From Candidatus Hydrogenedentota bacterium (lineage in GTDB: Bacteria > Hydrogenedentota > Hydrogenedentia > Hydrogenedentales > JAGMZX01): DNA of 64,000 nt. The notes under the pieces are model-generated. The model had not been told where the DNA came from. It did not search any database and worked only from the letters and a program-made list of their open reading frames with translations. The DNA is taken from positions 37,898-101,897 of the forward strand of contig JAKQEQ010000171.1 of the NCBI GenBank assembly GCA_029556545.1, read 5' to 3'. Positions 38,380-40,391 of this stretch are shown here, in pieces. The translations under genes were made by a program, and so were the position numbers. How positions within the stretch are numbered: the first letter of the stretch is position 1; the number at the start of each line of letters is the position of its first letter.

Positions 38380-39507
38380 ATGCGGATCATGGCGTGGCGA
38401 TCCACGAAATTACGACGGCTGATCGCGGGCGTGGCAGGGACGGCGCTTCTCTTGGCCGTCGGAGCGGCGCATGCCGCGAAACTGCGTGACCTGTGCGAAA
38501 TTCAGGGCGCGCAGCAGAACCTGCTCAAGGGCGTCGGCGTCGTCGTCGGGCTCGCGGGCACGGGCGACAAGGCGCCCATCGCCGTCAAGTCGCAGGAACG
38601 CATCCTCGAACGCCTCGGCATCGACGTGCAGGACCTCAAGCAACTCAAGTCGGACAATATCGCCGTGGTCATGGTCACTACTTACCTGCCGCCCTTCGCG
38701 AAGCAGGGCACGCGGCTCGATGTGCAGGTGGCGTCGTTGCACGACGCCAAGAGCCTCGAGGGCGGCACCTTGCTCGAAACCCACCTTCGCGGGCCGGGCG
38801 ACAGCGAAGCGGTCTACGCCGTCGCGCAGGGGGCCGTGTCCGTCGGCGGGTTCAACGCGGACGCGGGCGGCACAAGCCTGCGCAAGAATCACGTGACCGC
38901 CGGGCGCATCCCCATGGGCGCGGTGGTCGAGCGCGAGGTGCCCGCGACCATCACCGACGGCGAACGACTCATCCTGATCCTCAAGGACCCGGACTTCATC
39001 CGTGCGAATACGATTCAACAGTTGATTTGCGGCAAGTACGGTCCCGACGCCGCGCAAGCTTATGGGGCCGGCACGGTCCGCGTTACCATCCCCGAGGCGG
39101 AACGGGCGAACCTCGTCGCGTTTATTGCGGCGCTTCAGGATACCGAAGTGCCGACCCAGGCGCCCACGCGCGTCGTCATCAACGAACGCACGGGCACCAT
39201 CGTGGTCGGCGGCAACGTAATGATCAAGCCGTGCCAAGTCGCCCACGGCGGCCTCACCATCAAGATCGCCGCGACGCCGATTATCGCGCAGCCGCTGCCG
39301 TTCACCGACGCCGCGGCCATCGAGACGACCATGTTCGATATGGAGGCCGAGGAAATCGAGGCGCACCTGATGCCCGTCGAGGGCACGTCGGCCGGCGAGG
39401 TGGCCGAGGCGCTGAACAAGCTCAAGGTCACCCCGCGCGACATGATCTCGATATTCCAGGCGTTGCGCGAAGCTGGCGCACTCGAAGCGGATTTGGAGAC
39501 GATGTAA
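38380..39507 (+). CDS. flgI: Flagellar P-ring protein FlgI
   Basis: 375 residues. Signal peptide (VAGTALLLAVGAAHAA), then RDLCEIQGAQQNLLKGVGVVVGLAGTGD, VVMVTTYLPPFAKQGTRLDVQVAS, GTLLETHLRGPG, VAQGAVSVGGF and VINERTGTIVVGGNV, in family order. The C-terminus ends LEADLETM with a TAATG stop/start junction. ATG 38380 follows AAGGA at eight bases; ATG 38389, with GAGGA nine bases ahead, is equally possible. P-ring sits in the periplasm around the rod. Confidence 0.95.
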   Translation: MRIMAWRSTKLRRLIAGVAGTALLLAVGAAHAAKLRDLCEIQGAQQNLLKGVGVVVGLAGTGDKAPIAVKSQERILERLGIDVQDLKQLKSDNIAVVMVTTYLPPFAKQGTRLDVQVASLHDAKSLEGGTLLETHLRGPGDSEAVYAVAQGAVSVGGFNADAGGTSLRKNHVTAGRIPMGAVVEREVPATITDGERLILILKDPDFIRANTIQQLICGKYGPDAAQAYGAGTVRVTIPEAERANLVAFIAALQDTEVPTQAPTRVVINERTGTIVVGGNVMIKPCQVAHGGLTIKIAATPIIAQPLPFTDAAAIETTMFDMEAEEIEAHLMPVEGTSAGEVAEALNKLKVTPRDMISIFQALREAGALEADLETM

Positions 39508-39691
39508 TGTTATACAACGTTGTGGCCGGTCTCCCGACCGCGCCACAGAATCGACCGAAGGTCTCCCACTCGTGGCACCGGCGTTCCGCCCGTGATTCGA
39601 GACATGGGCAAGATGCCCATGCCACGCTTGTTGTGGCCGGTCTGCCGGACACAGCAAGACACACGGACTTGGAGGCGATGTAATGCTGTAC
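39489..39691. repeat. Insertion flanked by 27-bp imperfect direct repeats, between flgI and flgJ
   Basis: The flgI-stop/flgJ-start segment occurs twice, at 39489-39515 and 39665-39691, 23 of 27 bases identical and all four differences transitions. Between them lie two copies of TTGTGGCCGGTCT (39520-39532 and 39631-39643) and a hairpin CATGGGCA-AGA-TGCCCATG (39603-39621). The offset is 176 bp. Looks like an extragenic repeat element inserted with duplication of its target. Confidence 0.75.
39507..39683 (+). CDS. 58-codon ORF created by the insertion, stop overlapping flgJ start
   Basis: It starts in the flgI TAATG and ends in the TAATG of flgJ, so the stop/start coupling is duplicated rather than broken. 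The predicted peptide begins MLYNVVAGLPTAPQ and contains VVAGLPDTARH, which is typical of translated extragenic repeats rather than of a conserved protein. Any value is probably in handing ribosomes from flgI to flgJ. I do not claim a protein function. Confidence 0.3.
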   Translation: MLYNVVAGLPTAPQNRPKVSHSWHRRSARDSRHGQDAHATLVVAGLPDTARHTDLEAM

Positions 39692-40030
39692 GTCAATCCC
39701 CTCGAAGTCCGCTACACCGCGCGTGTCGACGCGGCGTTGACCGGCGCAGCGCGCGAAGAACGCGCCGTCCAGGAATTCGAACGCTTCTTCCTTTACACCT
39801 TGCTGCGCGAAATGCGGCGGACCGTGCCGCGCGACGGCCTCTTTGGCGCGGACCAGTCGCGGCAAGTGGCGGAGGACATGCTGGACGACGTCTTCGCGGG
39901 CGAAATGGCCCGGTCCGGGCAAATCGGCATCGCAAAGCAGATTCAGGAACAGTTGCGGCAACAGAATTCAAGCGGGGGCGGCGGCCTGCCGATAGATGGC
40001 GTAGGCACACCGCCGTATCCGCGGGAGTGA
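39683..40030 (+). CDS. flgJ: FlgJ N-terminal-type rod-binding protein
   Basis: 115 residues, equal to only the rod-scaffold half of enterobacterial FlgJ; the peptidoglycan hydrolase domain is absent, as in many non-enterobacterial flagellar systems. Motifs: QEFERFFLYTLLREMRRTVP, SRQVAEDMLDDVFAGEMAR and GIAKQIQEQL. A Gly/Ser-rich tail follows. It starts on a TAATG junction and the next gene starts five bases after its stop. Wall opening for the rod must be done by a separate enzyme. Confidence 0.88.
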   Translation: MLYVNPLEVRYTARVDAALTGAAREERAVQEFERFFLYTLLREMRRTVPRDGLFGADQSRQVAEDMLDDVFAGEMARSGQIGIAKQIQEQLRQQNSSGGGGLPIDGVGTPPYPRE

Positions 40031-40034
40031 CATC

Positions 40035-40391
40035 ATGAGCCTTATCGAAAGCTTGGGCGCGGCGGGCGCCGTATTGCGCGGAGCCCAGGGCGTGATTCGC
40101 GAACTGCGCCGACCCCGCGGGGCCGACGCCGCATTCGCGGCGGTCTTGCGCGAGCAACTGCAACGCAATGACCCGGCGGCGACACAGCGGATGACGCTTG
40201 AGATCAATGAGCAGAGCGCGCGCTTCGTCGCGTTGCGCGACGCGGACGGCGACGGCCTGCTCACGCTCGACGAGAGCGGTCTTACGCGGGAAGAGTTTCT
40301 GCGTCTCGATACAGACGGTGACGGGCGGCTCAGCGCCGCCGAAGTCGCGCGGCCGGCGCTTGACGCGCTTCAGCCCGCGCGGAACGGATGA
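40035..40391 (+). CDS. EF-hand calcium-binding protein in the flagellar operon
   Basis: 118 residues. A helical N-terminal half is followed by two EF-hand loops, RDADGDGLLTLDE and LDTDGDGRLSAAEV, both with the Asp-x-Asp-x-Asp-Gly and position-12 Glu pattern needed to bind calcium. No signal peptide, so it is predicted cytoplasmic. It lies between flgJ (5 bases) and flgN (ATGA overlap), so it is translated as part of the flagellar operon. I know no standard flagellar protein of this type; a calcium-responsive assembly or export factor is a guess. Confidence 0.75.
   Translation: MSLIESLGAAGAVLRGAQGVIRELRRPRGADAAFAAVLREQLQRNDPAATQRMTLEINEQSARFVALRDADGDGLLTLDESGLTREEFLRLDTDGDGRLSAAEVARPALDALQPARNG

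Follow-up and report, generated by a model that had tools for sequence, protein, structure and literature searches.

The window, a 64,000-nucleotide stretch of contig C18 in a 6.1-Mb genome of 195 contigs (G000), carries on its forward strand the flgI gene for the flagellar P-ring protein (38380-39507, stop codon TAA at 39505-39507), followed by a flgJ gene that encodes the rod-binding domain only (39683-40030). FlgI matched Pfam PF02119 (E=6e-110) and NCBIfam NF003676, while FlgJ matched Pfam PF10135 (E=4e-12) and, partially, TIGR02541. After flgJ comes a gene (40035-40391) for a protein of 118 aa that contains an EF-hand-like motif; a similar gene was seen at this position in the relatives L023 and L032. 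The gap between flgI and flgJ is 176 bp, and the segment that joins the two genes is found at both ends of it. The left copy (39488-39515, forward strand) comprises the end of flgI, the TAATG and two codons of the former flgJ start, and the right copy (39664-39691, forward strand) contains GGAGG (39671-39675), the TAA and the flgJ ATG. When the region was compared with the window by BLASTN, the copies aligned without gaps over 28 bp with 24 identical positions, and all four mismatches were transitions. The first-pass annotation of this DNA had recognized the duplication and its transitions, although the repeat that it gave, 27 bp with 23 identical, was one base short. With the copies offset by 176 bp, the addition amounts to 148 bp of new DNA (39516-39663) plus one 28-bp copy. 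Ungapped scores reached at most 13 in 600 mismatched pairings of left and right flanks from other repeat clusters, compared with 16 for the 22-bp core of the junction alone. Because the control scores were lower, and because both junction copies align to the single uninterrupted junction of relatives, the match is beyond chance.

Orthologous flgI genes were located in 30 of 40 related genomes and on four further contigs. The search for uninterrupted junctions that the first-pass annotation had proposed was successful. After correction for orientation, flgI and flgJ were found to meet at TAATG, TGATG or TAGTG, or to lie 1-13 nt apart, in 20-odd relatives that include G001, the sole genome available from the same genus; in L032 about 30 nt separate them. 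The 176 bp are missing from G001 and from 20-odd other relatives, in which the genes abut or overlap, and the gap is thus an insertion, as had been proposed. Since the junction is uninterrupted in G001 and most of the others, the insertion is younger than the split from G001, an age that is bounded on one side only and by one same-genus genome. Independent insertions have also reached the flgI/flgJ junction in another family of the order. In L033 (G034:C354) a different insertion carries an ORF that by eye resembles GxxExxY-family proteins, between inverted repeats of the CCACAGAGACACAGAG type, and in L036 (G026:C329) the junction contains only a short palindrome of the CCACAGAGACACAGAG type.

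The relatives also served to polarise two of the sites at which the junction copies differ. At the second site most relatives have A (GAGA), which is retained in the left copy and changed in the right, and at the third most have C (CTN), which is retained in the right copy and changed in the left. The change in the left copy, CTG to TTA, is located after the flgI stop. In the right copy, ACG became GCG within former flgI codons, so that GGAGA, seven bases ahead of the flgJ ATG, was turned into GGAGG. The polarised changes, at two sites, would fit decay of the unneeded half in each copy.

The inserted 148 bp (39516-39663, forward strand), absent in relatives, are a mosaic of two repeats in the order A-B-A', parts of which are repeated elsewhere in the genome. 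Repeat A (39519-39566) consists of GTTG, an imperfect palindrome (TGGCCGGTCTCCCGACCGCGCCA) and the right end GACCGAAGGTCTCC; repeat B (39571-39626) of two GTGG-headed palindromes in inverted orientation; and A' (39627-39658) is a short variant of A with its own hairpin. All three lie on the forward strand, and A and B also form hairpins. When the junction was used as a query against its own genome, 46 other places were recovered, all of them on two blocks corresponding to A and B. The first-pass annotation had regarded the insert as an extragenic repeat and suggested counting the TTGTGGCCGGTCT element genome-wide; the element is indeed repeated across the genome, and two dispersed palindromic families make up the 148 bp. 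The A-B-A' order recurs with identical spacers at C81:29973-30155, the B-A' part recurs at C172, and the junction between B and A' is identical at both places. Furthermore, the 175-nt junction RNA was predicted to fold 5.3 standard deviations better than shuffled sequences (z = -5.3). The repeat layout, the recurring order and spacers and the strong fold together indicate that the insert is a BIME-like mosaic. BIMEs are mosaic clusters of REPs, and the insert resembles them in its recurring order and spacers and in that A units also occur in tandem arrays. Unlike BIMEs, it combines two different families, and the head of A is GTTG rather than GTAG. The junction matched no known RNA family at E<=1, and neither a promoter nor an intrinsic terminator, nor a terminator-like T-run, was found within the insert.

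Copies of A and B were lined up from a sample of sixty repeat regions of the genome. By crude gene calls, several further copies occupy tight gaps between co-oriented genes, and 41 of 104 A/B clusters fall inside a called frame when ORFs are called crudely. In the 400 kb sampled for comparison of other A copies with empty sites in G001, intergenic divergence was too high for the junctions to be read. Many intergenic regions contain a third dispersed motif, CCCTCACCCCAACCCTCTCCCTCGGGGAGAGGG, beside A and B (L105, L064, L129 and others). A limited literature search found no description of A and B in Hydrogenedentota.

Repeat A occurs at about 105 sites in the genome with at most one mismatch to its 15-bp head. 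With a 16-bp pattern the count was 102 in this genome, 77 in G009, 25 in G008 and zero in the same-genus G001, a patchy distribution; the lack of A in G001 fits a late arrival. The copies share the GTTG head and imperfect palindrome; one arm is variable and the right end conserved, and in 67 of 71 first copies the base before TTGTGG is a G. Tandem arrays of A are frequent, in G009 (L150, G009:C42; L151, G009:C45; L145, G009:C20) as well as in this genome (L052, L081 and L089). Their extra units consist of the left end only and recur about every 24-39 bp, a pattern suggestive of growth from that end.

Repeat B was found at about 69 sites with at most one mismatch to its 19-bp core, and a reversed-pattern control gave 0. 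Most copies contain GTGGCAYGGGCRTCYYGCCCRTG and its reverse complement with few bases between them. This is the layout of a REPIN, in which REP palindromes are paired in inverted orientation (PMC3116915) with a short spacer. The palindromes of B also have the conserved head of GTAG/GTGG type at their foot, here GTGG, which is found among Pseudomonas REPs (PMC2817692). B is thus, like the REPINs and REPs associated with RAYTs (REP-associated tyrosine transposases; PMC3116915, PMC2817692), an inverted pair of GTGG-headed palindromes in high copy number. As in those systems, the repeat accompanies a transposase gene in G001:C80 (L132, about 1-1080), where arrays of B lie on both sides of an IS200-like (RAYT-type) Y1_Tnp gene; gene and arrays are likely a REPtron of the genus. 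A second Y1_Tnp gene in G001 has one B about 0.4 kb downstream. Unlike those systems, the genome of the window has no such arrangement: none of its Y1_Tnp genes lies within about 1.5 kb of any A or B copy.

Y1_Tnp genes number five in this genome, three in G001 and four in G008 (one below the cut-off), and no match was detected in G009, a 93% complete draft. Near these 12 genes no A was found except for matches with three mismatches at two G001 loci. Mobilisation of A by a RAYT is unsupported, given that G009 has its 77 A sites without a Y1_Tnp gene and that A does not lie beside such genes. The lack of Y1_Tnp in G009, subject to the 93% completeness of that draft, argues against this family moving A.

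The insert has direct repeats close to each of its ends, as it would if a transposase had specified the insertion and made a long target-site duplication in the manner of a MITE. The first-pass annotation had offered arrival with a long target duplication as one explanation, which fits the flgI/flgJ locus but is not the usual mode of insertion of A and B, as indicated by a scan in which the left and right flanks of 104 repeat clusters were compared for their best ungapped match. Outside common repeats, only the flgI/flgJ junction and L050 stand out. Scores above that of the junction were obtained at L050, which lies inside another repeat, and at L105 and L064, which involve a common low-complexity repeat; L082 scored 14, with a matching motif that is also present elsewhere. 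At L050 (6180-6370, G000:C112), near-identical direct repeats of 57 bp lie on either side of a copy of A. They are part of another intergenic repeat, one that contains a CGGGGGCGTCTCGCCCCCG palindrome, and since the locus lies in an intergenic stretch of that repeat it was not counted in support of a duplication. In G009, 0 of 28 clusters scored above 12. These scans of 104 and 28 clusters in two genomes, which are blind to duplications shorter than about 10 bp, ruled out target-site duplication as a general feature of A or B insertion, and the fixed-length target duplication expected at each copy of a MITE was not found. Long flanking repeats are nearly absent elsewhere, so a long target duplication is an exception for A and B. 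Elements of the IS200/IS605 type are not known to produce target duplications. These elements, which are relatives of RAYTs, transpose as single strands (PMC8266576), a further point against a duplication made by the transposase. Such an origin is considered quite improbable.

The 58-codon ORF described in the first-pass annotation is present on the forward strand (39507-39683), running from the ATG at 39507 in the TAATG of flgI to the TAA at 39681-39683 in that of flgJ. Its frame is open and ends on the flgJ start, as a real small gene might. However, its product matched no Pfam or NCBIfam family, and none of the flgI/flgJ junctions of relatives contains the ORF, whose conservation had been named beforehand as the mark of a real gene and would be expected of a protein-coding one. 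Moreover, its sequence amounts to translated extragenic repeats that are present at many other places. It is extremely improbable that the ORF is a gene in its own right.

The reading frame was also proposed to have been kept by selection. If translation of flgJ needs ribosomes arriving from upstream, the insert might have been fixed only because it was open from TAATG to TAATG. The exact coincidence of the end of the ORF with the flgJ start is in keeping with this proposal, but it was the duplication itself, rather than selection acting on the insert, that provided the start and stop: the duplicated TAATG supplies the left ATG and the right TAA, and only phase and openness are left to chance. 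A bridging ORF would arise by chance with a frequency of about 0.07 (1/3 for phase x 0.22 for openness in dinucleotide shuffles), and two of the three frames of the insert are open. Furthermore, among fifteen other insertions in tight gaps, bridging frames were found only in gaps of at most 110 nt and in 0 of the 8 longer ones, as judged by crude gene calls. The claim of selection was not borne out by these results, and the ORF was judged to be an incidental by-product of the duplication.

What favours a translational role is the predicted structure of the flgJ ribosome site. Predicted folds place the GGAGG of flgJ inside a local hairpin formed with the first codons of flgJ itself, with or without the upstream insert, and an arriving ribosome would open this hairpin. 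Some occlusion of the site is predicted for relatives as well (mean 0.23 unpaired, against 0.39 at the other GGAG sites of flgI; p=0.004), a modest difference from a post hoc comparison, and inspection by eye revealed no convincing compensatory changes for a conserved stop-start hairpin. Selection for the frame is considered unlikely. As the flgJ site is predicted to be folded with or without the insert and occluded in relatives, a relay role is possible: the repeat-derived frame might serve as a new translational relay, in which ribosomes that leave the flgI stop are brought to the start of flgJ and open the hairpin that would hide the flgJ site, and its openness might have allowed the insert to be fixed. 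This role is likewise regarded as unlikely.

The reading that is probably correct is that an A-B-A' insertion took place at the flgI/flgJ overlap, that 28 bp were copied on both sides by a route other than a transposase, and that the ORF is incidental. After the split from G001, 148 bp of palindromic repeat entered the overlap, and 28 bp of the junction are now present on both sides of the repeat. At this one locus, the junction may have been copied by break repair or slippage, either by the insertion itself or in a small prior tandem duplication. On the left, the copied 28 bp contain the C-terminus and stop of flgI, and on the right they supply flgJ with its ribosome site and start codon. Because the overlap was copied on both sides, both genes would have kept working and the event would have survived selection, and each copy may later have drifted only where it was no longer needed. 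The most economical view is one of survivorship, in which a stop/start overlap can withstand an insertion only when it is itself duplicated. The insert is like REP insertions inside operons in placing hairpin-rich DNA between two co-oriented genes, and differs from them in that an overlapping stop and start were split and the overlap copied. Its hairpins probably behave as those of REPs and BIMEs do inside operons, with at most a slight effect on mRNA stability or on the flgI:flgJ ratio.

The case is best read as a rare event, yet essentially an ordinary insertion of extragenic repeats of known kinds. It illustrates how an operon with an overlapping stop and start can tolerate a repeat insertion when the overlap itself is copied, both genes being left whole. 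In addition, two abundant palindromic repeat families are described for Hydrogenedentota, and in the other genome of the genus one of them, B, shows the REPIN-RAYT arrangement.
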